A stretch of DNA of 64,000 bases from Granulicella sp. S156. Lineage in GTDB: Bacteria; Acidobacteriota; Terriglobia; Terriglobales; Acidobacteriaceae. The notes under the pieces were generated by a model. The model was not told the origin of the DNA, made no database searches, and saw only the letters and a list, made by a program, of their open reading frames with translations. Every line of letters begins with the position of its first letter. The first letter of the stretch is position 1. Where the stretch lies: contig NZ_LMUH01000009.1 of the NCBI RefSeq assembly GCF_009766105.1, positions 337,428-401,427 of the forward strand, in the 5' to 3' direction. Shown here piece by piece: positions 4,080-21,568 of this stretch. The position numbers and the translations under genes were made by a program.

Positions 4080-4661
4080 ATGCGCCGCAACATTATCACC
4101 GCTATCCTCTACACCCTCGTCACGACGATCATCTTCGGCGTCGCCTATCCACTCCTAGTCACCGGCGCGGCACAGCTCTTGTTCAAGGACAAAGCCAACG
4201 GCCAGCTCATCACAGAGAACGGAACTGTTGTCGGCTCGCACCTTCTTGGCCAGTCGTTCTCCGCGCCGACGTACTTTCACTCCCGCCCCTCGGCTGCAGG
4301 CAATGGCTATGACGCCGCCAACTCCAGCGGCTCGAACTATGCGCCTACCAACCAGAAGCTCATCGACAGGGTCAAGGGCGACGCTGCTGCAGCGAACGCA
4401 GATCATCCCGGCACCGATGTTCCCGTCGATCTGGTCACGGCGTCCGGTTCTGGTCTGGACCCGGACATCACACCGGCAGCGGCAGAGTATCAGGTAGCTC
4501 GCGTGGCGAAGGAACGCCACATCTCGGAGAGCGCCGTGCACGATCTCGTAGCGAAGCACACCCAGGCACGCCAGTTCGGCGTGTTGGGCGAACCACGCGT
4601 CAACGTACTGGAGCTCAACCTGGACCTCGATCACACCGCCCCGCTTGTAGCCGCGAAATAG
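4080..4661 (+). CDS. kdpC: KdpC subunit of the Kdp K+-ATPase
   Basis: A 193-residue protein with one N-terminal membrane helix (about residues 8-28) and a periplasmic domain, as in KdpC, which is thought to raise ATP affinity of the pump. Typical family stretches are seen: [20 protein letters not shown] near residue 58 and the [17 protein letters not shown] region around residue 127. The ATG follows kdpB by 9 bp with a GGGGCA ribosome binding site. It closes the kdp operon; a hairpin-rich repeat follows and then convergent genes. Confidence 0.95.
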
Positions 4662-4713
4662 TAGCGGCTAGATGTGAAGTTGGATTACCTCAAATGCTGT
4701 CATCTTGACCGGA

Positions 4714-4802
4714 GGCGGCGTCTTTTGCCGCCGTAGTGGAGAGACCCCTGTATTTTCGCCCGGAGCTGCATAGCTGCTGGCGGCAGAATGCAGGGGTCTT
4801 TT
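4714..4802. repeat. Palindromic dispersed repeat, possible kdp terminator
   Basis: The gap between kdpC and the convergent gene holds two inverted repeats. GGCGGC (4714-4719) pairs with GCCGCC (4727-4732). AGACCCCTG (4742-4750) pairs with CAGGGGTCT (4791-4799) and is followed by TTTT. The layout (outward-facing arms around a 'pppNNNN' core) recalls the dispersed palindromes elsewhere in this window. It could end transcription from either side. Confidence 0.5.
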
Positions 4803-4865
4803 CCTGCCAGGTGCGCTCTGTCGTCCATATTGAGCTATTGTCCCCTGTAGCGATACGAAACCGCA

Positions 4866-6605
4866 TCACCGATGCCACTGATAAACAACCGTCTGATGCG
4901 TAGCACCATTGGCCGCCGCAGATTGCGTAAACGTCTCGGCATCAAGATCCTGAAACGTAGTACTCAGGCTCGCTAGATTCTTCGAGAAGAACGGCGGCGT
5001 ATCGCCACTTTGGGTTGAACCACCGGCGCCATCCAGCAGGCCCGTCAGCCGCGCAAACCCCTCACGCTCAAAGCGATGGTCGAACCCCGCGATGGTAGTC
5101 GCTACCTTGGGCGCCTTGGCCGCATGTTGCGACGCCTCAAGAAACCGCAGCAGCGTCGCTTCATCGGAGGCAACGACACAGACGTTGCCTTGAACAGTCA
5201 TGGCAAGGCCGTGCATTCCAGCCAACGTTACCCAGCTCATATTGTTACGATGATGTTCCTGCCATGTCAGTCCGGTCTTGCCGACAGTGAGCCGTGGCGC
5301 CAACGCAGCACTGAGACTTTGTTGCCACGCAGTCTGGTCCCATCCAACTGACGAGGCGAGTACGACTGCCGTATGAATGGGCGCGAACACACCTTCGTGA
5401 GGCTGTGAGTCTGTTGCGGAGTAAGCCAGCATCGCCTCCGGATGCGCAGAGACAAGCAGATCATGTAGCTGAGAAAGAGCTGCGGAGCGTGGCTGCGCAA
5501 CGACAGAGGTCTCGTCGATGCGCTCATCCAGATTCGAGATATCGTTCGACGTATCGCCTGCGTCAGGCGTAGAGAGGTCGGCGACCGGCGCAACGTGTGC
5601 GTCGCGATAGTCGCTGATCGTGCGCGAGAGCAGTTTGTCCTCAAACTGGTCGAGTACAGCGGTGGTAGTGGGCTGGGCCTGTGCGCGGTAGACCCCGCTA
5701 TGCTCCGGAAGATAGTCAAGCACGGGAGCAAGATCAGCACTTGCAACTTCTTTGCCGGGGTTTGCCGCAATCAGAACGCGCTCTTCACGAAAGTTGTCCG
5801 GGGTGCGGTAGAGATCGCTCAGCGCAGTACTGTACTGCTTGAGGTCTGTAATGTTCTGCTGCACCCAGTAGCTGCGGAAGTAGGGCGTTCGCACGATCTT
5901 CGCCAGATTTAGGGTCATCCGCAGATCGCCGGGCTTTTCATCGCCGGCCGCCACGGCCTCTGCATACCAGTGCTCATGGACCAATGTGGCGTCCGCCGGC
6001 TGCTGCATCAACTGCAGCGCGCTCGCCAGCAGGTCCTCGCGAGTGGCCAACAGCAGATAATCGCCGTGTACGGCGAAGGCAACAGTCCGCGCTGGATCGC
6101 CATCTGTGCGGACGTAGAACGTGGTATCTCCCACCTTGCGCTCTTCAAACTTATCGCGCAGTTGCAGTAGCGGTGTTTTAGCTGCCTCCCCGCTAGGCAT
6201 TCGTGTGACGTAGAGGAACTCAAGATTGCCGATGTCGTACCACGCGAAGAGACTTTGACCTCCGGCGACCTGTTGCAGAAACTCCGTATCAGCCGGAAGC
6301 CCTGCAGTGGCGGCGAACTGATCTTGCGCCTCTCCTAGGCGTGAGAACAATCGAGAGCGCGAAAAGCCCGCGTAGTTATCGCTCTTGAGCCAACGCTTTT
6401 CTTCTTCCGAACTCGACCACGAGTTGAGCAGGGACTTGAAGTCTGGAGACTCGATCGCCAGTAGCGCCCCCTGTGGAGCGAACGCCGCTAACGAGTTAGC
6501 CGCTGACGGCTGTGCCTGAAATGCTTTGTAGGCCGCGGCTCCGCCGACTCCCAAAATTCCAATGCCCAGCACGATTGCGAGAGCTATACGAGATCGCTTC
6601 ATCAT
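4866..6605 (-). CDS. Membrane-anchored DUF3352-like protein
   Basis: A 579-residue protein with an N-terminal signal anchor (about residues 5-27, rich in I, L, G and A) and a large extracytoplasmic domain. The N-terminal portion (FAPQGALLAIESPDFKSLL) and overall length resemble DUF3352-type proteins, a family without known function; that match is from memory and moderate. The ATG at 6605 overlaps the stop codon of the upstream TPR gene (ATGATG/TGA), which implies translational coupling. It is the last gene of a four-gene operon with the TPR, VIT/VWA and beta-propeller genes. No enzymatic motif is visible. Confidence 0.7.
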   Translation of the reverse strand: MMKRSRIALAIVLGIGILGVGGAAAYKAFQAQPSAANSLAAFAPQGALLAIESPDFKSLLNSWSSSEEEKRWLKSDNYAGFSRSRLFSRLGEAQDQFAATAGLPADTEFLQQVAGGQSLFAWYDIGNLEFLYVTRMPSGEAAKTPLLQLRDKFEERKVGDTTFYVRTDGDPARTVAFAVHGDYLLLATREDLLASALQLMQQPADATLVHEHWYAEAVAAGDEKPGDLRMTLNLAKIVRTPYFRSYWVQQNITDLKQYSTALSDLYRTPDNFREERVLIAANPGKEVASADLAPVLDYLPEHSGVYRAQAQPTTTAVLDQFEDKLLSRTISDYRDAHVAPVADLSTPDAGDTSNDISNLDERIDETSVVAQPRSAALSQLHDLLVSAHPEAMLAYSATDSQPHEGVFAPIHTAVVLASSVGWDQTAWQQSLSAALAPRLTVGKTGLTWQEHHRNNMSWVTLAGMHGLAMTVQGNVCVVASDEATLLRFLEASQHAAKAPKVATTIAGFDHRFEREGFARLTGLLDGAGGSTQSGDTPPFFSKNLASLSTTFQDLDAETFTQSAAANGATHQTVVYQWHR

Positions 6606-9600
6606 GGTTGCACCTTCGCCGTGCTGGCCGTGAGTCGCGGCCGCACGAGCACAGTCTGTTCGACAGATTTCTGAATCACGGGACGCCGCGTCGCATTCTC
6701 CTGTTGGATCGTGAGACGCTCCTGAAGCCCATGGATGCGGCTTTCAATCTTCAACTTCTGTGCCTTATCGTCGGTCAATGATGCGGCCGTCTGGAGGTCT
6801 CTTATCGCCTGTTGTTCTTGAGCAAGATGCTCTTCCATGGTCGCCAGCATCAGCACGAAGTCGTGCTTCTCCGCCTGGCTAAGGGAAAGTACGGGCGCGT
6901 CGTCAGGCGAGGAAGAACCTTCTCCGGGATAGTAGGTGTGCTCTTCTCCGTCGTCCGTTGTATACGTATTGCTGTCGCTGGAATCCTCTTCTTCTGAGGA
7001 CGTGTCCTGAGTCACAAAGCGCAGATCCTCATGTTTGTTCAGCAGCAATGCAATAACGGTGTCTGCCTGTTCGTAGTGATTGGCCGCGATCTCCGAGCGG
7101 AAGATCTCAAGTCGCAAGGTATCAACCAGCGATGCAGGCGCTGTCAGGATTGCAGCGCGCAGCGTCGCAGTCCGCTGTGCAGCCGGAAGCGCATTCGATG
7201 CGGCGATGCGGCTATAGACGAAGTACGGTTGGTCTGCCTGCTGTGTGCCGGGGTTGGCGCTAGCCAGCAGCGTCAACTCCGCGCTGTTGAAGTTGTAGGT
7301 TCCGGGAATGGCATGCAGCGCCTCGGCGGCCGTTGCTCGGTTGTCGTAGCCAGTGTTGCTGCTCGCCGCGACCGCACTCAGGGCTTCGACTGCCGGAGCA
7401 GTCTGCTTTGCCTCGATCAGCGCTTCTCCCAGCCGTCGCTGGTAGTCCTGATCCCAGGGCGTCCCCTTTGACAGCTTCGTCAGCATGGGCAGCGCCTCCG
7501 TTACGTGTCCGGTCTTCATCAGCAGTTCGGCCGCGCTGTTGAGGTTCTCGTACAGGTCTCCTTGCAGCGTTAGCCTGTGCAGCAGGTCGAGCGCGCCAGG
7601 CACATCGTCCGTTGCAAGCCGGGCGTCAGCCAGCGCGAGATAATCTGTAGCCGCCAGCTCTTGTAGCGCTGTCTTCTGCTGAAAAACATACTCAAGCAGC
7701 AGGCGGCTGTTCGCGTCGTCGTGCTTCAGGCGCAGTTGGTTGGCTACGCCGGAAAGAGCCTCCAGGGAAGGCGCGCTCGCCGGGTCGTCCTTGTAGCTCG
7801 CAAGCAACTGTGGAAGCCTCGACTGCCGCGCTGCCAGCAGGAGCGCAATCTTCTCTAACTCTGTGTCTTCCCTCTGGGTTGCCGGAATGCTTTCCAGCAG
7901 ACGTTGTGCCTCGGCAACCTGGTCCTGTTGCAGCATCCACTTCAGGTACCGGGTCTGGATGGAGAGGACCTCGCTTTGAACTCCGCTTTCCTCTCCGGCT
8001 TTGGTCTTTGCCGCTGCGGACTGTGCTTCCACCTGCGCCAGTGCGATCTCACGGCGATAGACATTGCCCAGCAGTTTATGTGGGAACCACGATTCGGCTG
8101 TCAGGGTGGAGAGAAGGGAGCGCTGCTCCGTCGTATCCGCAGTCAGGGCAAGCACCCAGTCGATGGCCTCATCCTGCCCGTCCAGCGCAATATACGCGTC
8201 ATGTAGCAGCTCGGCCGAGCGATAGCTTCCATTCTTCCGTAGATACGATTCAAGGACGGCGTTCATCCCCGGTTTCAGCTTCGCCGCAATTTGATGATCG
8301 TGCGCATCGTTTGCGATGGCCGTGAAGCACGTCCAGAAGCTCTCCGGTACGGAGTGTTCGTCGATTATTTCGCGCAGCTTCGTAAGCGCCTTGCGCCACT
8401 CCGCAAGGGCCTCGTCATGATGCCCCTCCGTCCACAGAACCTCTGCAATCGTGCGATTCGGTTCAGGATCGGTTGGGTCAAGCTCTTCTACGTGGCGATA
8501 CTCGGCGATCGCGGCGTCATACTTATGCGCATCGACATAGGCCTGTGCCAGTGCAGAATAGCTCTCGCTGTTCTGCGGTTTAACCTCCAGTTCCGCCGGT
8601 AGATAGTCCTCAGGGTCGGCGTCGGGTTTCTCCGCTATCGTGCGCAGCACACCGTAGCGCATGGCATAGTAAAACCACGGATCGCCGGTAATTTGCTTTT
8701 CTTCATCCGGCTTCATCTGCAAACGTTCGCCAATCGTTCCGTTAGCCAGCGCAGCCTGGAAGGCCGCGTTGGTGCGTGGCGAGGTATCGGCGAAGTACAA
8801 GCCCAGCAGCGCATTCGTTGCATTGGCCCATACCGGAGACGCGGCTGCAGTCCGCGCGGCAACCACCTGATAGGCAAACGTCTTCGAGCCGTTTGCTATC
8901 GCATAGTTTGCGGCGGCATCCGCATAACTGCCTTTCGCGGCAGCTAACGGAATCAGCGCGGCAGGATTGTGTTGCAGCAGCAACTCGAACAGCCGCTGCT
9001 GGTGCTGTACATCCTGATGGCTTAGAACCAGCTTGCGCAGGTCGCGTGTCTCCGATGCAAAATCTCCCGCATCGCGCCACGCGCTTGCAGCCATGGAGAG
9101 CGCTGATGATTGCTTTTTGTGTGGCAAGGTTACCGCATACGCATCCAGCGTCTGCGCTCGGACAAGATTGTCCATGCGCTCAGCCTCTAACTCATTGAAC
9201 GGTTGGAGTTGTTGCGCTGCAAGATCTTTATCTGCACCAAGCAGTACATCGCGCCGCCACGTGGCCTCACGGTCTTTCAACTCTGCTGCTTGTGCAGCGG
9301 GAATCCAAACGTCGGCTACTTCTTTCTGTGACGCATTGGCGCGCTTCGTATCCAGAAGGCGGGCATAGGCGAGCTTTTCTTCCGGCGTATAGTAGTCCGC
9401 TGCCGTTGTGCTTAACTCCTGCACTGCGCGCTGGAAAGAGTTCTGCGCAAACTGTCTACGCTGTTCCACCAACTGTTTGCGCCACTCTGCATCCGTCACC
9501 GACGCAATGCCTTTTTCTTCTACCTGCTTGATGACGATTGCGGGTGACGAGGGCGACACATTGGCAGCCGCGCGTGCACGCTCCAGCAAGCTCAACGCCT

Positions 9601-12600
9601 CCTGCGCTTGGCGCTGCCGTCCGAGCAGATTCGCATATTGCACAGCGCCGTTGGCATTCGCCGTATCCGTCAACAACTCGTCTCCAGCGAGCTTCACCCC
9701 CTCGTCGCCGAACTTGCGCGCCTCGGCCAGCATGTCCCATTCTGTCAACTGCTCCGCGACGCGGAAGTTGTTCGCAGCCGATGCGGGACGCCCTTCGATC
9801 CATGCCGTCTGCAGCGCCTTCACTGCAAGATCGGCGCGTCCCTGTCGTGCGCGAGCCAGCGCGGCCTTTTCCATCCACTGGGGATCTTTGTAGGTGAGGA
9901 AGTAGAGCCTGTCATAGTCGGCACACACTGCCTCGAAGGCCTGTTGATGTTCTTCCAGGTCGGCCCTGGCTATGTACAGCTCCGGTCTGTCCTTGCGGAC
10001 CGCAATCGCCTTAGAGTAGGCAGCCAATGCACCGTCGTAGTCTTCGAACAGAACATCGACATGTCCGAGATCGATCGCGAAACGCGAGTCGCGGGGGGAA
10101 TCCGCCACGGTTTTGTTCAGGAAGGCGACAAGCTGTTGTTCACGGCTGTGTAGTCGCGCATACGAAGTCGCGTTCTGCAGGATGTCCGCATCTTCAGGAA
10201 ATGCGCTGATCAACGCAATGTGCTGATCGAGCGCGCCGCTGTAGTCCTTCAGATCGGTCAGTGCTGCGATCATGCCCTGGCGTGCGAGTGCGATCTTGTC
10301 ACGCTTCTCCAGCTTGCTCAGGCTGGAGCTCTGCAATGAAGTCAGAGTTGCCGCATAGAAGTCGCGCACGCCGGCCGCATCGTGTGCCTGCGTATAGCTG
10401 TCCGCATAGAGATGCAGATACTGCTCGTTATACGGATCGGCGGTGAGCAGCGGTTTCAGCAAAGCTCGCGCGCCTGCATAGTCGCCACTCTGGCTCGACT
10501 TCGCTGCGGCTTCTAATGTGAAATCATGGGCCAGTGCTGGGTTTGCATCATGCGATGCCTGCACCAGCGTAGCTACGGCGCGCTGCGGCTCTTTATTGTT
10601 CCAGTAGAAATCTGTAGTGGCGCGCACCACGCCGAGAATCTTCGTGTTGTCCTTATAGACCGCTTCGATAACACGCTGCGCGCTGGCAGTGTCCTTTTGG
10701 TCTTCATAAGCTCGCGCGAGCTGATACTGAAGCTCGATGCGCTGGACTGGATCTATCGCCAGCGTAATCTCGCGCTGCAACGCAGCCTGGTAAGCCAGTG
10801 GGAGCTGGTTGCTCTGGCTGAGCTCGGCGAGTTGTGCCGCGTCCTCTACACTAGTCGTCTTTTGGATGGCTGTCTCTATAGCGGGGCCGATGGCGTCTTG
10901 CTGCTGCCGGGCATTCAGTACATCGACCCGCAGCTCTAGCGCAGCCAGCGTCGGATGCTGCGTCAGGCTGCTGGCCGTAGCTTGATCGACAAGCTCGCCT
11001 GTCGCCTGTCGCGTGGCCAGTGTTAGTAGCCGCGCGCGTGCACTTGAACTAGGATCTTCCGACTGCGCCGTATCTGCTTGTTGTGCATCCGCTACGATTG
11101 CCGCCCGCACATACTCGGCGATGGCTCGTGCAAAGTCGCGCTTATTCTCGTAGATCGCGCCTGCTTCGTAGCCGTATAGTGCTGGGTTATGGAACTGCTT
11201 GCGCGCCGCCTCGATCTGCGCGACAGCGTCGTCGAACTGGAAATAGTCCCAGAAGACCGTCGCGGATTGCAGGTAGCCGTCAGACAAACCAGGATGCACC
11301 GCGCTCATCCGCCTCCAGTACGGCGCCGCCTGCGCTATCTGATGGTCTGCGGAAAGATTCAAGCTGGCTGCAGTGCTGTCGGCATACATATCGCCAATGG
11401 TTGCGAGCCTGTCGAGGTTCGCCGGATCAGCCTCCGAGAGATGCTTCTCGATAGTGACAGCATGCTCGATCTGCGCAGGATCGTAGTAGGCCAGCGAGCG
11501 AAAGACACTCGCGGCATCTTCACCAACCGCAGCATCCGCGGGATATAGCTGAACCAGGTTGCCCAGCAGAGGCGCGCTCTCTTCAAAGTGTGACTGCCAG
11601 AGCTGCAGCTGTGCCAGCTCGCGTGTAGCCGCAGGGTTCTGCTGTTGTGCGGCTGCGGCCGGCACCAGCGCCTCAAGCGAGGCCATCTCTTTGTCGAGGC
11701 CGTTTGTGCGGCTGAGGTAGCTGAAGAACTGTGCCTGCAGTTCGGGCGATTCCTGCCAGTGCTCGCGCATCAACTGCTCCCATGCAGCAGCGTCATACGT
11801 ATCCTTTGCCAGATACGCACTCAACAGGTTGAGCGTGAACGTAAGGTCGTGCGGAAAGCGCTTATGGGCATACAGATTGAGTTGCAGATACTCCTGCGGC
11901 CAGCTGGAAGAAACATTACCGAAGTACTGCTCAAGCTCTGTGCCCTGGAAGATATCGACGACCTTGTGCGTGAGTGCGTCGAAGTCCTGCTGCCGTTTCT
12001 CGCGCAGATAGAAGCGTGCGAGCTTGTCATAAAAGCTCGTATCGTTGAAGCGTGCGATCGCCTGTTGGTAGACCGCCTCCTGCTCCGCCGCGAGATTGTT
12101 CTGTTGCAGGAAGTCCGCGAGTCGCGCATACAGCAGCGGGTCGTTTGGATTGCGATCGAGCTCGCGCCGCAGAACGGCCAGGGCGGCCGGCAGTTCTTTT
12201 ACCGTTGTGAGCCGGCTAAGGTAGCGGTCGAGTATCTGCTTGTAGGCTTCAGCGGTGCCAGTTGTCGTAGGCGCAAACACTGGTACCGTAAGCGATTGCT
12301 TCAGCAGCGCGCTGGCCTGTGCCGCGGGTGTGGTGGTCGTTTGCGTGCCGCCATCACTGGCATTGCTCGCCTGGTCTTCGCTGGGCGTTGGGGTTTGAGC
12401 TGCGGACGTCGTCGCCGCACCTGCTGCGGTCAGCGGCATCCCTTGGAGGCTTGCAGAGAGTTCGGTAAGCAGCCCCTCATAGAGAGCGAACTCCGCCTTC
12501 GTATCGTTCTGCCGCGCATCGACGTCGGCTACCTCTAACGCCACTTCAAGCCGTTCCGCAGCATGAGGAAAGTCCGCGAGGAACTGTTGCCCGGCCTTTC

Positions 12601-14098
12601 GCACCGCATCGTCCTGGCCATAGGTGATGTAGGCGCGAATCAGCGCCGCATGCAGCGCGGGCCGTGCGTCCGATGCCGGAAAACGCTGGTCGAGTACAGC
12701 GAGCAACTCCGCAGCCTTAGCCCGATGGAAGTAAGGTGTGGCCTTCACCTCTTCATCGTGGAACTCCGAAGCAGGGGTCACGGAGTTGAACCACAGCGAG
12801 AGAATGCCATTCAAATATCCCGGCCCTTGATCGAGGGTTGCGAGGTCGCGATAGATCGAAAGATTCCCCGAGCCCAGATCGATCGGCCTCTCCGGTGAGC
12901 TGAGCAGAATGCGGATGATGCTGCTCAGTCCGGACTCCTCCGGCGTCTGCGTCGTTGCCGTCAGCTTGCCTTGCGTACCGGCCAGCGCATAGTAGTAGCG
13001 AGCAGCCTCTTCATACTGCGTCGCGTTGTTCAGCAGCGTAGCAAAGGTGTAAAGCTCATCGGCCGTCCACGCCACATGGCGGCTTTCTTTGCTCGCTCCA
13101 TACTCGGCCAGGGTGTTCGCTGCCGCATCGCTGCGACCCTGTTGTTGGTAGTAGAAGAAGATGCGCGTAGCGGCGCTGTAGTCGTCGGGGTTTTGCAGCA
13201 GCCGCGCCCGCGCGTCGGCGAGCATGGTGTGTTGCATGTGTGCTGCGTTGAGCAGCTGAAAGTACGTCTGCACCAGCTCCGCGGGCCATAGAGGTTGATA
13301 GGCCTTATCGAAGAGCGCTAGCGCCTGCGTGGTTGCCGCCGCATCACCCTGTTGCAGCGCCACCAGGGCGGTGGTCTTGATGGGAAACACCGAATCTTGC
13401 GGGAATGCCGTGCGATAGTCCGCGATCGCCTGCTGGGCATCGCTATAGCGCCGCATCTTCATCAGTGCGGAAACGAAGTTTGCTCGCACGGCAGGCTCAG
13501 CAGGATAGCGAGCGATCCATGCTCTATGGATAGCAATGGTTGCGTCATCACCCAGCACTTGTTCCTGCGCCACGATGAGCGCACGTGCAAACGCTTGCCA
13601 CGCCCTCTGCTGATCGGCGGCAATGAACTTCTCTCCGGCAGCGGAGGGTGCGGTCGCGGCCTGCTCCAGTGCCGTGACCTCCTGCTGTCCTTCAACGCGG
13701 CGATGATAGAAGTCAGCAAGTTCGAACTCTGCGGCCTGCTTATCCGCCGAGTCTCCAACGAACGCCTTCCAATCCTGCTCGGCGGCGCTGAAATCGAGCG
13801 CCTGTTCCTCACTATGCGCACGCAATGCATAAAGCTGCGCCGCGTCGGATTTTCCCTTGAGCAAACTGTTCAACTCGCCACGCGCCTCAGCCGGCGGACG
13901 CGGATACAGCATCTTTACCCCCGGCAGATCCATGGCACGATACAGCGCAGCCTCAATAGCTGAACCGGACACAACACTTTGCAGCCACGGAGCCAACTCG
14001 GCTCGCGCACAAAAACTCATGGCACACACCGCGCCAAGCGCGACGGCAGCATAAGCCACACGCGAAGGGAAGAAAGAGCGATTACGGGACGACTTCAA
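6602..14098 (-). CDS. Giant exported tetratricopeptide-repeat protein
   Basis: A protein of about 2,498 residues built of tandem helical TPR-like units over nearly its whole length (for example LYIARADLEEHQQAFEAVCA and LAQAYVDAHKYDAAIAEYRH). It has an N-terminal signal-like helix (about residues 13-32, ending CARAE) and an acidic Ser/Asp/Glu-rich stretch near the C-terminus. The start is set at a TTG at 14098 because an AGGAGG box (14105-14110) lies 6 bp upstream; the open frame extends to 14134 but with no such site. The gene overlaps the VIT/VWA gene by 17 bp and the DUF3352-like gene by 4 bp. It is probably a periplasmic or surface scaffold for protein-protein contacts; the partner is unknown. 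Confidence 0.85.
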   Translation of the reverse strand: MKSSRNRSFFPSRVAYAAVALGAVCAMSFCARAELAPWLQSVVSGSAIEAALYRAMDLPGVKMLYPRPPAEARGELNSLLKGKSDAAQLYALRAHSEEQALDFSAAEQDWKAFVGDSADKQAAEFELADFYHRRVEGQQEVTALEQAATAPSAAGEKFIAADQQRAWQAFARALIVAQEQVLGDDATIAIHRAWIARYPAEPAVRANFVSALMKMRRYSDAQQAIADYRTAFPQDSVFPIKTTALVALQQGDAAATTQALALFDKAYQPLWPAELVQTYFQLLNAAHMQHTMLADARARLLQNPDDYSAATRIFFYYQQQGRSDAAANTLAEYGASKESRHVAWTADELYTFATLLNNATQYEEAARYYYALAGTQGKLTATTQTPEESGLSSIIRILLSSPERPIDLGSGNLSIYRDLATLDQGPGYLNGILSLWFNSVTPASEFHDEEVKATPYFHRAKAAELLAVLDQRFPASDARPALHAALIRAYITYGQDDAVRKAGQQFLADFPHAAERLEVALEVADVDARQNDTKAEFALYEGLLTELSASLQGMPLTAAGAATTSAAQTPTPSEDQASNASDGGTQTTTTPAAQASALLKQSLTVPVFAPTTTGTAEAYKQILDRYLSRLTTVKELPAALAVLRRELDRNPNDPLLYARLADFLQQNNLAAEQEAVYQQAIARFNDTSFYDKLARFYLREKRQQDFDALTHKVVDIFQGTELEQYFGNVSSSWPQEYLQLNLYAHKRFPHDLTFTLNLLSAYLAKDTYDAAAWEQLMREHWQESPELQAQFFSYLSRTNGLDKEMASLEALVPAAAAQQQNPAATRELAQLQLWQSHFEESAPLLGNLVQLYPADAAVGEDAASVFRSLAYYDPAQIEHAVTIEKHLSEADPANLDRLATIGDMYADSTAASLNLSADHQIAQAAPYWRRMSAVHPGLSDGYLQSATVFWDYFQFDDAVAQIEAARKQFHNPALYGYEAGAIYENKRDFARAIAEYVRAAIVADAQQADTAQSEDPSSSARARLLTLATRQATGELVDQATASSLTQHPTLAALELRVDVLNARQQQDAIGPAIETAIQKTTSVEDAAQLAELSQSNQLPLAYQAALQREITLAIDPVQRIELQYQLARAYEDQKDTASAQRVIEAVYKDNTKILGVVRATTDFYWNNKEPQRAVATLVQASHDANPALAHDFTLEAAAKSSQSGDYAGARALLKPLLTADPYNEQYLHLYADSYTQAHDAAGVRDFYAATLTSLQSSSLSKLEKRDKIALARQGMIAALTDLKDYSGALDQHIALISAFPEDADILQNATSYARLHSREQQLVAFLNKTVADSPRDSRFAIDLGHVDVLFEDYDGALAAYSKAIAVRKDRPELYIARADLEEHQQAFEAVCADYDRLYFLTYKDPQWMEKAALARARQGRADLAVKALQTAWIEGRPASAANNFRVAEQLTEWDMLAEARKFGDEGVKLAGDELLTDTANANGAVQYANLLGRQRQAQEALSLLERARAAANVSPSSPAIVIKQVEEKGIASVTDAEWRKQLVEQRRQFAQNSFQRAVQELSTTAADYYTPEEKLAYARLLDTKRANASQKEVADVWIPAAQAAELKDREATWRRDVLLGADKDLAAQQLQPFNELEAERMDNLVRAQTLDAYAVTLPHKKQSSALSMAASAWRDAGDFASETRDLRKLVLSHQDVQHQQRLFELLLQHNPAALIPLAAAKGSYADAAANYAIANGSKTFAYQVVAARTAAASPVWANATNALLGLYFADTSPRTNAAFQAALANGTIGERLQMKPDEEKQITGDPWFYYAMRYGVLRTIAEKPDADPEDYLPAELEVKPQNSESYSALAQAYVDAHKYDAAIAEYRHVEELDPTDPEPNRTIAEVLWTEGHHDEALAEWRKALTKLREIIDEHSVPESFWTCFTAIANDAHDHQIAAKLKPGMNAVLESYLRKNGSYRSAELLHDAYIALDGQDEAIDWVLALTADTTEQRSLLSTLTAESWFPHKLLGNVYRREIALAQVEAQSAAAKTKAGEESGVQSEVLSIQTRYLKWMLQQDQVAEAQRLLESIPATQREDTELEKIALLLAARQSRLPQLLASYKDDPASAPSLEALSGVANQLRLKHDDANSRLLLEYVFQQKTALQELAATDYLALADARLATDDVPGALDLLHRLTLQGDLYENLNSAAELLMKTGHVTEALPMLTKLSKGTPWDQDYQRRLGEALIEAKQTAPAVEALSAVAASSNTGYDNRATAAEALHAIPGTYNFNSAELTLLASANPGTQQADQPYFVYSRIAASNALPAAQRTATLRAAILTAPASLVDTLRLEIFRSEIAANHYEQADTVIALLLNKHEDLRFVTQDTSSEEEDSSDSNTYTTDDGEEHTYYPGEGSSSPDDAPVLSLSQAEKHDFVLMLATMEEHLAQEQQAIRDLQTAASLTDDKAQKLKIESRIHGLQERLTIQQENATRRPVIQKSVEQTVLVRPRLTASTAKVQP

Positions 14099-16484
14099 TC
14101 TGCACCTCCTGTGAGCCGACGTTATGCGCAACATCCTCAGCCGTTACCGAAAGCGTATAGCTGCCCGGAGCGAGCGTATCCGGAATACGCATTTCTCCGG
14201 TACTGGCGGCCGCTGCACTATTCCAGCGCAGATCGACCGGCATCGCACCCTGCAGCCGCGCCGTCAGCGTCCGTGTGGTGGCTGTCGCTCCAGCCTTGAT
14301 GAGCATGGCATCGCCTCGATGGTAGCGAGTACGCTCCAGCTTCACCCGCACGGCGGGCGGCGTCGAGGCAATCACAAAGCTCTTCTGCTCGGCGTAGGTA
14401 TTGCCCTTCGCATCACGCAGAATGAGCCGGACAGTATAGGTGCCATCCTGCATATCGGTAGGCGCAAGAAACCGCGTCTCCCACAGACGATCGCTGTCGG
14501 GCCCCTTCTGCTTGTCTTCCGAGGCGATGTGCCGCAGCGGCTGTGTCAGTCCAAACGGAAACAGTGCAATCACAGAGGTAATGGCCGGGTCCGTATGCAC
14601 GCGAAGCACCGGATCGCCGGGGCGGATGATGCGCGGACGTAGCAGCGATCGCGGCACCGCAAGGAACGACGTATACGGCGTGACGAACTTATATCGCCGC
14701 GAGAGTTCGATGATCTCGTCGATCGCGGCACGCGTCTCGCCGTCACGTGCAATCTGATCCAGTAGCGCATTCACCCGCGCTTGCGCCCACAACCGCGGAA
14801 GCTGCGGATGCTCGAGTGATTCCGCAGGAAGATCGATTTTGGTGGAGGCCTCCAGCGGCTTGTCGCCACGCTCTGCATGGGCTGTAAAGGTGACCTGTTT
14901 CGTGGGCGTCGTATAGTCCCCAACCCACGCGGCAATGGAGCCGGCGTAAACCGAGTCGTCAAGCGGATACACCGTATGGATCGCACTCGACGAGGAGATA
15001 TCCAGGTGAAGTCCGCCAACAGGATGCGATGTACTGTGTGCCAGAAACGTACTGAGCTTGGCCTCCAGGGGTTCGGTCGCGAGCACGTTCTCCAGCACGC
15101 CATCGTTCTGTGCCAGCAGCTTCAGCAGGGGAAGATTGGCATCATCTCCCACGGCAAAGATGTTGGCGCGTGGGTGCATTGGCGATTGTTTCCACTGCTG
15201 CGCATAGGCTGCGGCGATCTTGCCGGTGAGGATCGTAGTCCCACGATCGGAGTTGCCATCCGTCAGCAAGACCAAACTGGAGTTCGGCAGCTTCGCCTGC
15301 GCCAGCCCTGCCGTCAGCGCTTTGCCAAGGTCCGTGCCCCCGCGTAGTTTGCTGGAACGCACAAACTGTAGCGCCTGTTGCACGGCATCCGGCGTAGCTG
15401 CCACCGGCACCGTTTTGAACGAGGCGACATCCTGGTTGAACAGGAGCACGGAGAACTGATCGGTAGGCTTCAAACTCAGCAGCACGGCCTCAAGCGCCGC
15501 ATAGCTTCGTTCGAGCTTCTCCCACTGCATCGAGAGGGAAGTGTCGAGCAGTAGAACAACATTGCGCGGCGGCGTCTGCGTTGCGGGCGCCGCAACCGGC
15601 GAAGCGATAAGCGTTTGTGCAAGGAAGAACCCCGGCTCTGGCTGACGCGGCTTCGGAGACATCTCATCCGGCGACGGCAACCCCGGATTGGGATTGCGGA
15701 AGGCGGTCACAGCAAGTGTGTCGGCCGAACGCGCGTCAAGCTGCCAGGCCGTGCTGAAGTCCTCATTGAGCGAGACGTTGGTCCCCTCCCAGGTGCCGAT
15801 CACCGTATTAGCATCCTGACGGCTGATCTGCAGCGGGAACTCCTTGCTCACCAGCTTGAAATCCGCGAACGCCTGTGTGGAGTGCAGCTCGAACTGCAGC
15901 TTGAGGTGCGCGGCCTTCTGCACCTGGTACTGTGCCGGCTTCAGCGGAAGCACGAAGCCCTGCATATAGCGGTCGACCGTCAGCCTCTGGTGGTACTCGA
16001 GCTCCAGCCGCTTCGTGCCGAACGCGGGGATAGGCGTGATCTTCGCCGTAAAGGTCGAGTCAGTCTTCGGGTCGGAACCATCGCGCTCACCCGCCTCCAG
16101 CAGTCCCGGATCGATAGCCTGCGCACGAGCTTGCTGATAGACCTCCTCGGCACGCTTGCGTTCCAGAATGACCGCGGGAATGCGGACCGGGCCATCCCAC
16201 GTCGCGAAGTCCGACACCGTACTGCCCGAAGGCAGCGCGAAGATATAGGTTCCCTCTTCGATGTGATTGGAACGGTTCGCGAATATCTGTGTCAGAGAAA
16301 CACGCGCATCGCCATTGTCGATAACGACATTCACCCGCATCTCTTCCAGCGAGAGCACCTCGGGGTCAGGCTTATCCTTGTCCCTCGGCAACAGTACGCC
16401 GGACTGCCCTTGTGCAAGGGCCGGAGCAAAAAGCGCAACCAGAGCCCAAAATCCTAAAATTCTCCACACATCGTGCCCCTTCAT
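14082..16484 (-). CDS. Exported VIT and von Willebrand A domain protein
   Basis: An 800-residue protein with a signal peptide (cleavage about residue 26, ALAQG), a VIT domain (about 40-180, with the hallmark EEGTYIFALPSGSTVSDF) and a VWA domain from about 308. The metal-ion-dependent adhesion site is complete: D314-T-S-L-S, a Thr in LRGGTDLGKAL and an Asp in LVLLTDGNSDRG. The C-terminal 200 residues look like beta-sandwich repeats. The pairing matches inter-alpha-trypsin-inhibitor heavy-chain-like bacterial proteins, generally thought to mediate adhesion or assembly. The start codon overlaps the stop of the beta-propeller gene upstream (ATGA), and its end overlaps the TPR gene. Confidence 0.9.
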   Translation of the reverse strand: MKGHDVWRILGFWALVALFAPALAQGQSGVLLPRDKDKPDPEVLSLEEMRVNVVIDNGDARVSLTQIFANRSNHIEEGTYIFALPSGSTVSDFATWDGPVRIPAVILERKRAEEVYQQARAQAIDPGLLEAGERDGSDPKTDSTFTAKITPIPAFGTKRLELEYHQRLTVDRYMQGFVLPLKPAQYQVQKAAHLKLQFELHSTQAFADFKLVSKEFPLQISRQDANTVIGTWEGTNVSLNEDFSTAWQLDARSADTLAVTAFRNPNPGLPSPDEMSPKPRQPEPGFFLAQTLIASPVAAPATQTPPRNVVLLLDTSLSMQWEKLERSYAALEAVLLSLKPTDQFSVLLFNQDVASFKTVPVAATPDAVQQALQFVRSSKLRGGTDLGKALTAGLAQAKLPNSSLVLLTDGNSDRGTTILTGKIAAAYAQQWKQSPMHPRANIFAVGDDANLPLLKLLAQNDGVLENVLATEPLEAKLSTFLAHSTSHPVGGLHLDISSSSAIHTVYPLDDSVYAGSIAAWVGDYTTPTKQVTFTAHAERGDKPLEASTKIDLPAESLEHPQLPRLWAQARVNALLDQIARDGETRAAIDEIIELSRRYKFVTPYTSFLAVPRSLLRPRIIRPGDPVLRVHTDPAITSVIALFPFGLTQPLRHIASEDKQKGPDSDRLWETRFLAPTDMQDGTYTVRLILRDAKGNTYAEQKSFVIASTPPAVRVKLERTRYHRGDAMLIKAGATATTRTLTARLQGAMPVDLRWNSAAAASTGEMRIPDTLAPGSYTLSVTAEDVAHNVGSQEVQIEVVP

Positions 16485-18442
16485 GGCAGCCTCGTTTCGG
16501 CGATCCGTACAACGCCGTTATCTGTTCCAACATAAAGCTCACCGCCGTTTTCGGCGAAGGCGGTCACATTCTTTGACGGCAGCCCGGCGGTAATTCGCGA
16601 CCAGTGATGCGACGCTCGGTTATAGATCAGCAGGCCATCGTCCAGCGAACCCGCGAAGACATGTTGCGGCGTCTCGAACATAGCGTTGGGATTGATGACG
16701 ACATCCGCCACGTCCATCGAAGTCACATGTCCGGCTCCATCCATCTGCACGACACCGCCACCATACGTACCGACGAACCAAGTGTCCGGAGTCTCCGTCT
16801 GGGGCACGCGCAGAAGCGCAGTGATCCAGTTGCGCTTCAGGCCGGAGTTCTTCAGGGTCACGTTCTGGTGCACAGTCTCATCATCGAGAATCGAAATCCC
16901 CCCCAGCGTTCCGGCGAGGATGCGTCCACTCGTACGCTCCGCCGCCAGCGTGTAGACGTGGTTGTTCACCAGTCCCTGGAAGGCATAGAGGCTCTGCGCG
17001 CCGGACGGCGTAAAGAAAGTCAGCCCCGCCGGAGTGGCGAGCGTCATGCCGTCACGCGTAAAGCCGATGTCGGTTACCTGATCCGAGATCAGCCCATCCC
17101 GCCGCAGAAGCACCTGTCGTTCTGAAGGCGTCGTCTTCGCAGGATCGAACAGCACCAGCCCATTCGCCGTCGCTACATCTATCGTCTGCCGCAGCGGATC
17201 AGTCACGATGCGGTTCACGCAGAAGACATGGTCGTCTTCCACGTGTTCAGCATGCCCGCTATGTACATCCAGTACGTCAACGCCGCGGTCGAAGTACCCA
17301 ATCCAGAGGCGGCCATCCGGCGCGAAGTTCAGCGAGGTAATATTGCGATCGGAAAGCGACCGCTGAGAAGGAGCAAGAACGGTCTGCCAATCCCCACTAA
17401 CCCCGCCGCGGCCGTGGCGCAGCACCCTTCCGTCTCCAATGGCCAGCAACGCGCCGTCTACGGTAAAGAAGTGAGCATGGTTCAGGTCTTCGCTCGCCAA
17501 CGGCTCGCGCACAGCCTGGTGTGGCTTCAAGTCGATCTCACGCAGACCTTCGTCGATCGTCGCAATCACCAGGGTGCTTCCCTCCAAAGCCAGCGAATGC
17601 GCAAACAGGCCCTGCGCAAGTACCCTGGCGGCACGGCCATCGGTAAACTCTGCCACCCCCAGCGGCGTGCCTACGAACACACCGGCCGTTCCAATCGCGA
17701 TGTCTTCCACTTCGGGATCGGGCAGGCCGCTGTTTTGGTCGAAGGCATCCAACTGGCCGGCATGCCAGTGCAGTACACCTTTGGTGCGTGTCCCCACCCA
17801 GAAATCTCCTTCGTCTCCGGCGAGCGCGGTTACGGGAATCCCTGCAAAATCGGATCGGAACAGCCGCAGCGTCTTGCCGTTATAGATCAACAATCCTGCC
17901 CGCCGCGTGCCGATCAGGATGTCGCCTGAAGCCAGAGGGAGAATGGCGGTGATGTCGCGTGCCGTAGCATCGGCGGGACGCAGTTGCCGAACCGGCTTCG
18001 TTGTGTCATCGGTAACGAAAAGCAGTCCTTCCCCATGCGTAGCTGCGATCAGGTACGGGGAGGGTTCGCCGTGCAGCCGTCCCGTGGCGAGAGCTGTAAT
18101 GGGAGCGGGCGGAAGCTCCAGTCCAGTCCGAAGCAGTGTAGGCTGCGCGCCCGCGGCCAGAGAGCTATAGCCCGCAAGCCCACCCGGTCCAGCCAGATAA
18201 ATCCTGCCGCCGAACGCTGCGCCAGTGACAGCATCGTTAGGTGAAGGCAGCGGCTCGAAACCAGTCTTTACGCCTTGAGAAGAGCTATCCAGAGTGAGAA
18301 GGTCGAAGGCTAAATTGCCTTCCTTGTCGACCCGCTGGCGGGTCTCCCGCAGGGTAGAGTTGATTCGCAAAAAAGCAAAGCACGCGCCGCCGAGCACAAG
18401 AATCAGAAGGGCGGAGGAGATGAGAAGAGTGGCCTTACGCAT
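16481..18442 (-). CDS. Exported beta-propeller (two-component-regulator propeller-like) protein
   Basis: A 653-residue protein with an N-terminal membrane anchor (about residues 7-26) and repeated units of the Reg_prop/ligand-binding sensor type, for example FAPDGRLWIGYFDRGVDVLD and LATPAGLTFFTPSGAQSLYA. These usually form seven- or fourteen-bladed propellers in the periplasmic half of hybrid sensor kinases. Here no kinase, HAMP or DNA-binding domain follows, so it is a stand-alone propeller. It is the first gene of the overlapping operon with the VIT/VWA, TPR and DUF3352-like genes. No ligand can be named. Confidence 0.8.
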   Translation of the reverse strand: MRKATLLISSALLILVLGGACFAFLRINSTLRETRQRVDKEGNLAFDLLTLDSSSQGVKTGFEPLPSPNDAVTGAAFGGRIYLAGPGGLAGYSSLAAGAQPTLLRTGLELPPAPITALATGRLHGEPSPYLIAATHGEGLLFVTDDTTKPVRQLRPADATARDITAILPLASGDILIGTRRAGLLIYNGKTLRLFRSDFAGIPVTALAGDEGDFWVGTRTKGVLHWHAGQLDAFDQNSGLPDPEVEDIAIGTAGVFVGTPLGVAEFTDGRAARVLAQGLFAHSLALEGSTLVIATIDEGLREIDLKPHQAVREPLASEDLNHAHFFTVDGALLAIGDGRVLRHGRGGVSGDWQTVLAPSQRSLSDRNITSLNFAPDGRLWIGYFDRGVDVLDVHSGHAEHVEDDHVFCVNRIVTDPLRQTIDVATANGLVLFDPAKTTPSERQVLLRRDGLISDQVTDIGFTRDGMTLATPAGLTFFTPSGAQSLYAFQGLVNNHVYTLAAERTSGRILAGTLGGISILDDETVHQNVTLKNSGLKRNWITALLRVPQTETPDTWFVGTYGGGVVQMDGAGHVTSMDVADVVINPNAMFETPQHVFAGSLDDGLLIYNRASHHWSRITAGLPSKNVTAFAENGGELYVGTDNGVVRIAETRLP

Positions 18443-18747: not shown

Positions 18748-20196
18748 TCAGACCGTGTAAAGCCCGACATACTCATCCACCGGCATAGCTTCCAGCTTCG
18801 CCTGTTCTGACGAGGCAGCAAGAATCTTCTCCTGCGCCTCAGGAGAGAGTCGGCGCGCAAGGTTATGCCTGAACTTATCCAGCAGCAGCGGAATGCCATC
18901 GCCGCGGCGCAGCCGGTGCCCGATCGGATACTCGACAGCCACCTCGGGCAACACCGTTCCGTCATTCAACTCAACCGTGAGCGCATTCGCAATCGAGCGC
19001 TTCTCGGGGTCATGGTAATCAGCAGTAAACTGCGGGTCTTCGACGCAGACGATCCGCGCCCGCACCTCGTCGATGCGCGGACCCCACGTCGGGTCGCAGG
19101 CAACAGCGTCGTCATAGTCTTCGGCGGTAAGGCGGCCAAAGATCAGCGGTACCGCAACCATGTACTGGATGCAGTGGTCGCGGTCGGCAGGATTATTCAA
19201 AGGACCCTGCTTATCGATGATGCGGATACAGGCCTCATGCGTGCGAATCGTGACGCGAGCAATGTCTGCCGCCGTCTTGCCCAGCGCTGCCAACTGCGCA
19301 TGCAGCGTCATAGCGGCTTCCACCGCGGTCTGCGAATGGAACTCCGCGGGGAACGAGATCTTGAAGAGCACGTTCTCCATCACATAGCTGCCATAGGGCC
19401 GCTGGAACTTGAAAGGCTGTCCCTTGAAGCTGACGTCGTAGAAACCCCACGTCTTCGCGCTCAACACGGACGGATAGCCCATCTCCCCGGTCTGCGCGAT
19501 CAAGGCCAGCCTCACCGCCCGCGAGGTCGCATCACCCGCGGCCCAGCTCTTGCGCGAGCCCGCATTGGGAGCATGGCGATAGGTACGCAGCGATTGCCCA
19601 TCCACCCAGGCCAGCGAGACGGCATTCAGCGTCTGCTCGCGCGTAAGGCCCAGCATCTGTGCGACGACCGCAGTGGACGCGACCTTCACCAGCACAACGT
19701 GGTCGAGCCCCACCTTGTTGAACGAGTTCTCCAGCGCCAGGCATCCCTGAATCTCGTGCGCCTTGATCATGGCGGTCAGCACATCGCGCATCGTGAGTTT
19801 GTGGCCATTGCGCGCAAGCCAATCGGCAACGGCAAGAATGCCGCCAAGATTGTCCGACGGATGTCCCCACTCGGCTGCCAGCCACGTGTCGTTGAAGTCG
19901 AGCCAACGGATGATCGCGCCAATGTTGAAGGCCGCCTGCACAGGGTCGAGCTCGTAGCTTGTCCCCGGAACGCGCGCGCCGTTCTTCATCGTGAGCCCCG
20001 GCACCAGCGGGCCAAGCAGCTTGTTGCAGGCAGGGAAGTCGAGTGCCTGCAACCCGCAGCCAAGCGTATCGAGCAGACAATAGCGCGCGGTCTCATAGGC
20101 AAGTGAACTCTCAATCCTGTAGTTCAGAACATAGTCGACGATGTCGATGAGAGGTTGATCAAACTCGGGGCGAACATTGGAGATATGGCTGGACAT
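18748..20196 (-). CDS. prpD: 2-methylcitrate dehydratase PrpD
   Basis: A 482-residue MmgE/PrpD-family protein; PrpD dehydrates 2-methylcitrate to 2-methyl-cis-aconitate in the 2-methylcitrate cycle. Typical features are the N-terminal LAYETARYCLLDTLGCGLQA, the segment WLDFNDTWLAAEWGHPSDNL and the later DATSRAVRLALIAQTGEMGYP. Length matches PrpD (about 480). The ATG at 20196 has an AAGGAACC site just upstream. It lies on the same strand as prpC and prpB, which supplies the pathway context; the intervening gaps contain palindromic repeats, so tight cotranscription is not certain. Confidence 0.93.
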   Translation of the reverse strand: MSSHISNVRPEFDQPLIDIVDYVLNYRIESSLAYETARYCLLDTLGCGLQALDFPACNKLLGPLVPGLTMKNGARVPGTSYELDPVQAAFNIGAIIRWLDFNDTWLAAEWGHPSDNLGGILAVADWLARNGHKLTMRDVLTAMIKAHEIQGCLALENSFNKVGLDHVVLVKVASTAVVAQMLGLTREQTLNAVSLAWVDGQSLRTYRHAPNAGSRKSWAAGDATSRAVRLALIAQTGEMGYPSVLSAKTWGFYDVSFKGQPFKFQRPYGSYVMENVLFKISFPAEFHSQTAVEAAMTLHAQLAALGKTAADIARVTIRTHEACIRIIDKQGPLNNPADRDHCIQYMVAVPLIFGRLTAEDYDDAVACDPTWGPRIDEVRARIVCVEDPQFTADYHDPEKRSIANALTVELNDGTVLPEVAVEYPIGHRLRRGDGIPLLLDKFRHNLARRLSPEAQEKILAASSEQAKLEAMPVDEYVGLYTV

Positions 20197-20300
20197 GTGG
20201 TTCCTTGAAATTTCCTAAGCTTGCAATTGCTGGCGTGCTGCTGTCGTTGTTGCTCTTGCTCTTGTCATTGCCATTGTCGTTGCTTTTGTCGTTGTTTGTT

Positions 20301-20402
20301 TTTCGCCGTCATCCTGAGCCGTAGGCGAAGGACCCCCGAATTTGGTATCACCACAGAAGAATGCCGGGGGTCCTTCAGCTGCGCTTCAGGATGACGGCGA
20401 AA
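20301..20402. repeat. Long palindromic dispersed repeat between prpC and prpD
   Basis: A 17-base arm TTTCGCCGTCATCCTGA (20301-20317) is matched perfectly in inverse at 20386-20402. Inside, GAAGGACCCCC pairs with GGGGGTCCTTC around an AT-richer loop. The flank 20240-20300 is a T/G/C-rich low-complexity run (repeats of TTGTCGTTG type). A shortened copy of the same right arm occurs at 49407-49447. Confidence 0.75.
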
Positions 20403-20404
20403 AA

Positions 20405-21568
20405 CTACGTACGTTCCCCTATCGGCACAAACGCCACATCTTCCGGCCCAATGTAATTCGCACTCGGCCGAATGATCTTCCCATCAGCGCGCTGCTCCAT
20501 CACATGCGCCGCCCATCCGCTGGTACGCGCGATGGTGAAGATCGGCGTGAACATCGCAGTCGGTATCCCCATCACGTGATACGCCACAGCCGAGAACCAG
20601 TCGAGGTTTGGAAACATCTTCTTCACTTCGAACATCACCGCTTCGAGCCGTTCGGCGACGTTGTACATCGCGAGATCGCCTGCGGTTGTCGAAAGATCAT
20701 GCGCAACCTTTTTTATGACCACATTGCGCGGGTCGCTGATCGTGTACACCGGGTGCCCGAAGCCGATAATGACTTCCTTGTTCGCAACCCGCGCGCGGAT
20801 ATCAGCCTCGGCCTCGTCAGGCGAGCTGTAGCGCTGCTGAATCTCCAGCGCAACCTCGTTCGCTCCGCCGTGCTTCGGGCCTTTCAGCGCGCCGATAGCC
20901 CCGGCGATGGCCGAGAACATATCCGAACCCGTACCCGCAATCACGCGCGCCGTAAAGGTGGACGCATTGAACTCGTGCTCCGCATAAAGAATCAACGACA
21001 CGTGCATCGCCTGCACCCACTCGGAGCTCGCAGGTTTGCCATGCAGTAGATGCAGAAAATGTCCGCCGATAGAATCGTCTTCGGTTTCCACCTCAATGCG
21101 CTTGCCGCTGTTTGCAAAGTGGTACCAGTAGAGCAGCATCGATCCCAGCGACGCCATCAGGCGGTCGGCGATGTGTAGCGCACTCTCAGGGCTATGAGGC
21201 TGCGGTTCAGGTTCGAGCGTCGCGAGCACCGAAACACCCACGCGCTGCACATCCATCGGATGCGCGCTGGCAGGAAGCTGCTCCAGAGCCGTCTTCACAC
21301 CCTGCGGCAGGCCCCGCAGGCCCCGCAACCGCTGCTTGTAGCTCGAAAGCTCCGCCGCTGTCGGCAGCTTGCCGTAGAGCAACAGGTACGCAATCTCTTC
21401 AAACTCGCACTTCGCCGCGAGTTCGAGAATGTCGTAGCCGCGATAGTGCAAATCATTGCCATTGCGGCCCACAGTGCAGAGCGCCGTGTTGCCCGCAGGT
21501 ACGCCCGAAAGCGCAACGGATTTTTTGGGCTTGAACCCCGGTGTCGCTACTGCTGTCTCTCCACTCAT
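20405..21568 (-). CDS. prpC: 2-methylcitrate synthase (citrate synthase family)
   Basis: A 387-residue citrate synthase-fold protein. It condenses propionyl-CoA with oxaloacetate to 2-methylcitrate. Catalytic regions are seen as [16 protein letters not shown] (oxaloacetate/catalytic His) and [15 protein letters not shown] (second His), with the Asp region after. The short length and N-terminal [26 protein letters not shown] are typical of the PrpC/type II short citrate synthases. Location between prpB and prpD favours methylcitrate rather than citrate synthase, though dual activity is common in this family. The ATG at 21568 follows AAAGGCG. Confidence 0.92.

Follow-up and report, generated by a model that had tools for sequence, protein, structure and literature searches.

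Gene content and order of the operon

The stretch of DNA analysed here (the window) comprises 64,000 nucleotides of contig NZ_LMUH01000009.1 from Granulicella sp. S156, and its minus strand carries a block of four overlapping genes encoding exported or anchored proteins. Gene 1 (16481–18442; product P0001, 653 aa) encodes a Reg_prop propeller protein with an N-terminal membrane helix, and gene 2 (14082–16484; P0002, 800 aa) encodes a protein with a VIT and a VWA domain and a C-terminal Ig-like stretch. The product of gene 3 (6602–14134; P0003) is a giant tetratricopeptide-repeat (TPR) protein, 2510 aa long when read from the ATG at 14134, and gene 4 (4866–6605; P0004, 579 aa) encodes a protein with an N-terminal membrane segment, for which no Pfam family was found at E ≤ 1. 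Genes 1 and 2 overlap by 4 bp, as do genes 3 and 4. The overlap of genes 2 and 3 is 53 bp with the longest open reading frame (ORF) and 17 bp with a TTG at 14098; the latter, with the Shine-Dalgarno sequence AGGAGG 6 bases 5' of it, is the probable start of gene 3. Among 21 loci including the window, gene 3 has a TTG at exactly 17 bp in 13, an ATG at 14 bp in five and a start at 4 bp in three, with additional start codons farther upstream in several of them. An earlier note on this DNA had described overlaps of 4, 17 and 4 bp and an N-terminal signal peptide or anchor in every product. The reading frames are confirmed, the figure of 17 bp holds for the TTG at 14098, and a single N-terminal hydrophobic segment was found in each of the four proteins, all of which look exported or anchored (the signal peptide of P0002 was judged by eye). 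The four overlapping genes are real, far beyond chance. The number of promoter-like sites was 3 (shuffle mean 4.3), and that of terminator-like sites was 19 (shuffle mean 11.9, standard deviation 3.3).

In Acidobacteriota, the four genes are kept in this order, from the propeller gene via those of the VIT/VWA and giant TPR proteins to that of the anchored protein of ~580 aa. Scanning the genomes of named species with a gene 2 profile yielded 245 relatives. In the best 80 of these loci, all acidobacterial by record title, gene 1 lies upstream of the gene 2 relative in 73/75 testable cases, gene 3 lies downstream of it in 78/78, and gene 4 is present in 64/64. Whether the genes stay together in relatives had been proposed earlier as a test of their connection, and they do. 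Phylum-wide, the gene 4 profile had matches in 29 of 347 genomes (own genome included), and of 20 neighbourhoods fetched from these, 18 have gene 3 no more than 1.1 kb upstream of gene 4, the exceptions being loci L094 and L102. Where a neighbourhood extends 1 kb or more beyond gene 3, which is so in 14 of them, gene 2 precedes gene 3 in 12 (exceptions L092 and L104). In L097, a 321-aa ORF is situated between genes 3 and 4. The presence of the operon is patchy, as relatives of P0003, with two candidates scored per genome and the own genome included, were found in only 12 of 120 genomes of the family (E ≤ 1e-20) and 9 of 28 genomes of the genus. The stretches fetched around these relatives have the identical gene order, although several end at contig ends and gene 3 is broken in L024. 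We found no additional recurrent partner, as no other gene family adjoins the operon in more than seven of 112 loci.

The propeller, VIT/VWA and TPR labels of the earlier note are borne out, with Reg_prop, VIT, VWA and TPR matches exceeding the Pfam cut-offs. P0001 matches Reg_prop with E 3.4e-11, and its AlphaFold2 model (pLDDT 87.9) probably consists of two propellers. In a Foldseek search with this model, the best structural match was the periplasmic part of the heparin sensor BT4663 (4a2m, E 1e-20, TMq 0.37), and the type IX secretion system protein PorZ was also matched (5m11, E 3.6e-15, TMq 0.62). There were 1744 matches in total at E ≤ 0.001, many of them to other double propellers. By sequence, P0001 scored 24.8 bits against the PorZ model NF052228, far under its cut-off of 260. 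P0002 matches VIT (E 6e-21; the only VIT match in the window's genome), VWA_3 (E 5.5e-14) and Big_13 (E 1.1e-7). The residues of its VWA metal site, D314, S316 and S318 of the DxSxS motif together with D409, are invariant in 11 aligned sequences. Its relatives in the PDB are the heavy chains of inter-alpha-trypsin inhibitor (ITI), namely H4 (residues 54–609) and H1 (305–624). The cut-off of the marine sortase target model TIGR03788 was not reached by P0002 (161.9 bits, cut-off 551.65).

P0003 matches TPR_14 (E 3.3e-12) and TPR_19 (E 2.9e-11). In genome G009 (L024:3992–11400), gene 3 is distributed over three reading frames, which may reflect an assembly error or decay. For gene 4, the earlier note's assignment to DUF3352 had to be abandoned: at E ≤ 5, neither DUF3352 nor DUF2138 was matched by any of 27 family members (17 near ones, including P0004, and 10 distant ones). 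The AlphaFold2 model of P0004 (pLDDT 75.9) has TP0453 as its best solved match (Foldseek E 4.7e-4). With VIA-align, the model could be superimposed on TP0453 (3k8g) with Z 11.0 over 218 residues (rmsd 4.8, 8% identity). Weaker matches include domains of PknH, TiME, LpqN and DcrB, with many unrelated proteins beneath them. Relatives of gene 4 occur without gene 3 in the fetched stretches L094 (10313–12226) and L102 (9740–11653), so the gene 4 family also exists outside the operon. In addition, a small predicted protein of ~136 aa adjoins gene 4 in L098:7293–7703, L101:7835–8242 and L104:10951–11358, all from one family group.

At the downstream end of the operon (4080–4865), gene 4 is adjoined by kdpC on the plus strand (4080–4661). 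Upstream of the operon and on the same strand, prpD and prpC of the methylcitrate cycle occupy positions 18748–21568; L040 likewise has both genes, and L041 has prpD.

Genes 5 and 6 in relatives of the operon

Outside the genus, gene 4 is usually followed by two more genes, gene 5 (~285 aa) and gene 6 (~350 aa). In the same best 80 of 245 loci, gene 5 is present in 46/51 testable cases and gene 6 in 18/19; for the latter, 61 of the 80 loci were untestable, mostly because the fetched stretch ends. The earlier note had taken four genes to be the whole system. Since most relatives have one or two more genes after gene 4, the four-gene set is a shortened form.

Gene 5 looks like a small penicillin-binding-type transpeptidase. 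Both members scanned exceed the cut-off of the Pfam family Transpeptidase (33.2 and 44.0 bits, cut-off 22.1), and class B penicillin-binding proteins are among the nearest solved structures (E 3e-8). Of the active-site motifs, SxxK and SxN are each conserved in 12/12 aligned members, and KTG in 11/12. Gene 6, in turn, resembles SpoIID-type lytic transglycosylases: the two members scanned scored 62.3 and 58.5 bits against the Pfam family SpoIID (cut-off 23), and the nearest solved structures are those of SpoIID (E 6e-29 to 3e-28). Glu153 in the numbering of the gene 6 protein P0009, presumably the catalytic glutamate, is kept in 12/12 aligned members.

The gene 6 profile had no match in the window's genome nor in seven of the eight other operon-bearing genomes of the genus. 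It matched in all 11 operon genomes outside the genus, in two of which the operon is split over contigs. Similarly, the gene 5 profile had no match in 9/9 operon genomes of the genus and matched in 9/9 outside it, two of the 11 being left out. Neither the first 26 kb of the window nor ten related stretches showed remnants of either gene, save for an intact gene 6 in L091. In G141, from the same genus, and L091, from another genus of the family, gene 6 directly follows gene 4 and gene 5 is gone. Copies of gene 6 standing after gene 4 without gene 5 (L193:3973–6089, L091:13742–14743) look like intermediates of the shortening.

A quick gene 2 tree of 74 rows places the window in a clade of 11 rows, all without gene 5; two of them have gene 6, and the other nine lack it as well. 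This clade is nested among groups that carry the tail of genes 5 and 6. The tree requires five changes for gene 5 and eight for the presence or absence of the tail, and contains additional tail-less groups, some of them near the midpoint root; L108 is a long branch. The tree by itself does not separate gain from loss. Still, gene 5 is present on the early branches L100 and L108, which makes loss the simplest explanation in the clade of the window. Should the six-gene form prove ancestral, the lineages that lack genes 5 and 6 would show, as natural experiments, what the scaffold does by itself.

A possible role in the cell wall

The two tail genes have a counterpart in Escherichia coli. SpoIID is found above cut-off in the C-terminal half of the E. 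coli protein YfaQ, and the gene 6 profile matches YfaQ with E 4e-10 at a search size of 4300 proteins, compared with 0.35 for the best among 2000 shuffles. For gene 5, profile comparison with the YfaQ N-terminus by hhalign gave P 6e-5 (best of 60 shuffles 0.04), and a separate profile comparison gave P 2e-4 on the stretch from SxxK to SxN. By sequence, gene 5 (weakly) corresponds to the first half of YfaQ and gene 6 to the second, and the two genes stand in the order of these halves. The yfaQ gene shares an operon with the macroglobulin gene yfaS, a pseudogene in the E. coli locus examined, which we take to be a type II alpha-2-macroglobulin (A2M). We further assume that MagE is the counterpart of YfaQ in Pseudomonas aeruginosa, and that MagB is, like YfaA, a DUF2138 anchor protein. 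According to a recent and independent study, the N-terminus of YfaQ is transpeptidase-like and its C-terminus SpoIID-like, and deletion of yfaQ leads to wider cells and shows links to peptidoglycan genes (PMC12282094, 2025). In P. aeruginosa, MagD of the mag operon is reported to protect against the peptidoglycan-targeting type VI secretion effectors VgrG3 and, partly, Tae1, but not TseH (PMC12663445).

Since genes 5 and 6 resemble enzymes that link and cut the cell wall, the block probably builds a machine for wall maintenance or defence. With middling confidence, we propose that the products assemble into a single envelope complex whose task is to maintain, check or protect peptidoglycan; its assembly, enzyme activity and role we infer. 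In such a complex, the products of genes 4 and 1 would be anchors in the inner membrane, and the giant TPR protein would provide a periplasmic backbone and scaffold. The VIT/VWA protein would serve for metal-dependent binding or trapping, and the propeller protein would sense a ligand. In the six-gene form, the gene 5 transpeptidase and the gene 6 transglycosylase might re-link, trim or cut the wall. As both enzymes are gone in the window's lineage, the core there would have to act via other wall enzymes that it recruits, or by binding alone. Of the earlier proposal of one envelope-associated complex for surface adhesion or sensing, the complex remains the natural reading, as the genes are kept together and the products look exported or anchored. 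The adhesion or sensing role does not hold up as well, being backed by generic domains, and genes 5 and 6 indicate peptidoglycan instead. A literature search, mostly without subscription papers, found no description of this gene set. The system is real and conserved, larger than the earlier note described and apparently undescribed, and its gene content suggests a link with the cell wall rather than with adhesion. If this is true, an anonymous four-gene cluster becomes a testable cell-wall hypothesis about a widespread envelope system in a major soil phylum.

Several observations weigh against this interpretation. No hydrophobic segment above the threshold of 1.6 was seen in the one gene 5 and the one gene 6 protein tested, so the export of both rests on the appearance of their N-termini. 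Profile searches did not find genes 5 and 6 in the window's own genome, where the core hence persists without them, and one or both are missing in other lineages too. The VIT/VWA, TPR and propeller domains would also suit many other functions. By HMMER, gene 5 falls short of a significant match to YfaQ (E 0.16; the best shuffle gave 0.38). A profile comparison of gene 4 with YfaA by hhalign scored 15.9, below the 21.6 reached by shuffles; sequence thus lends no support to gene 4 as a DUF2138 relative, which leaves YfaQ as the only yfa component matched. Moreover, DUF2138 (PF09909) is found in none of 297 genomes of the phylum, although the E. coli control matches, and the DUF2300 cut-off is reached in none of the 297; 43 of them had weak matches at E ≤ 0.1, and so did the controls.

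Other explanations differ in how they account for these genes. Propeller, VIT/VWA and TPR domains are each common on their own, and the genes could encode unrelated exported proteins linked by nothing but a common transcript. This is almost certainly wrong, being already contradicted by the phylum-wide conservation of the gene order and of the stop-start overlaps and by the lack of any other frequent neighbour. A surface adhesion or sensing machine, in which the VWA domain binds an external ligand, the propeller senses a carbohydrate and the TPR protein is the backbone, would agree with the conserved metal site of P0002, with the heparin sensor as the best structural match of the propeller protein, and with the export or anchoring of all four products. 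We nevertheless consider it quite unlikely: the TIGR03788 score of P0002 is far below the cut-off for sortase targets, no signalling gene or other family adjoins the operon in more than seven of 112 loci, and the peptidoglycan-enzyme genes of most relatives would be left unexplained. The latter would have a place in an assembly or secretion station for a surface structure, similar to PorZ, where the products of genes 1–3 handle the substrate and those of genes 5 and 6 make a local opening in the wall for its passage. Trans-envelope machines commonly have dedicated lytic enzymes, and PorZ is among the structural matches of P0001 and also a weak sequence match. Against such a station, no channel, ATPase or substrate gene recurs next to the operon (at most seven of 112 loci for any family), and the lytic gene has been lost in the window's lineage though the remainder persists. 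On balance, such a station is unlikely, if somewhat less so than an adhesion machine.

We regard as distinctly doubtful a sentinel against proteases or other attack, with the VIT/VWA protein catching enzymes as A2M does and genes 5 and 6 repairing the wall. The solved relatives of P0002 are ITI heavy chains, but in animal inter-alpha-inhibitor the inhibitory part is bikunin and not the VIT/VWA heavy chain. Neither a bait region nor a thioester turned up in P0002, although no systematic search was made. A2M (PF00207) was not found in the window's genome; among 24 genomes searched it was present in four, three of 14 operon carriers and one of 10 others, which does not support simple mutual exclusion of A2M and the operon. 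On the other hand, type I A2M genes adjoin pbpC, and a trap-and-repair hypothesis has been published for them (PMC5764988). The reported protection by MagD against some wall-attacking effectors (PMC12663445) would also fit a sentinel.

Comparison with known systems

Individual components of the operon resemble known proteins. Like ITI heavy chains and other bacterial VIT/VWA proteins, P0002 has VIT followed by VWA, and it is similar in sequence to H4 and H1. It differs from the heavy chains and TIGR03788 proteins in its C-terminal Ig-like stretch, in a TIGR03788 score that is far too low, and in the genomic fixation of gene 2 to the genes of the giant TPR and anchored proteins. The propeller fold of P0001 matches double propellers of both the PorZ and BT4663 types, but also many unrelated ones, and no kinase or secretion gene recurs next to the operon, with no other family there in more than seven of 112 loci. 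The P0004 model shares its fold with TP0453, but the identity is low, and P0004 is longer and has a membrane segment; the likeness of this predicted model implies nothing certain about function. Known anti-phage defence systems were considered as well and rejected, as PADLOC models had no matches among six proteins at E ≤ 0.01.

The closest parallel is with the yfa/mag operons of type II A2M (yfaA-yfaT-yfaS-yfaQ-yfaP in E. coli, magABCDEF in P. aeruginosa), whose products are also exported or anchored and grouped around a very large protein. Both have an anchored partner of similar size: gene 4 encodes 579 aa, and the 589-residue MagB is reported to hold MagD at the inner membrane, MagD binding MagA, MagB and MagF (PMC5764988). 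As for the pair of transpeptidase-like and SpoIID-like enzymes, fused as YfaQ in E. coli, relatives of the operon match it clearly with gene 6 and weakly with gene 5. A side observation concerns E. coli YfaT (DUF1175; L048:12337–12960), which has weak NlpC/P60 similarity (20.8 bits, cut-off 23) and could be a further wall-related component of yfa operons.

Unlike in yfa/mag, the large proteins of the operon are VIT/VWA, 2500-aa TPR and propeller proteins. DUF1175 and DUF2135 had no match in P0001–P0004 or in the gene 5 and gene 6 proteins scanned (two of each), and no A2M model scored above cut-off in P0001–P0004 (MG2 in P0002 had 16 bits, cut-off 32.8). As A2M and DUF2138 were not found either, we do not class the operon as a member of yfa/mag. 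Genes 5 and 6 are, moreover, separate, gene 5 keeps all three active-site motifs, and the window lacks both. It is conceivable, although we think it improbable, that in Acidobacteriota an ITI-like VIT/VWA protein on a giant TPR scaffold stands where the proteobacterial yfa/mag operons have A2M, working with the same two wall enzymes. Two folds of the plasma-protein type would then have been recruited independently to one periplasmic defence or repair job. The operon would also offer a second setting, independent of bacterial macroglobulins, in which to look at the enzyme pair of YfaQ. It may work like yfa/mag while standing outside that family.

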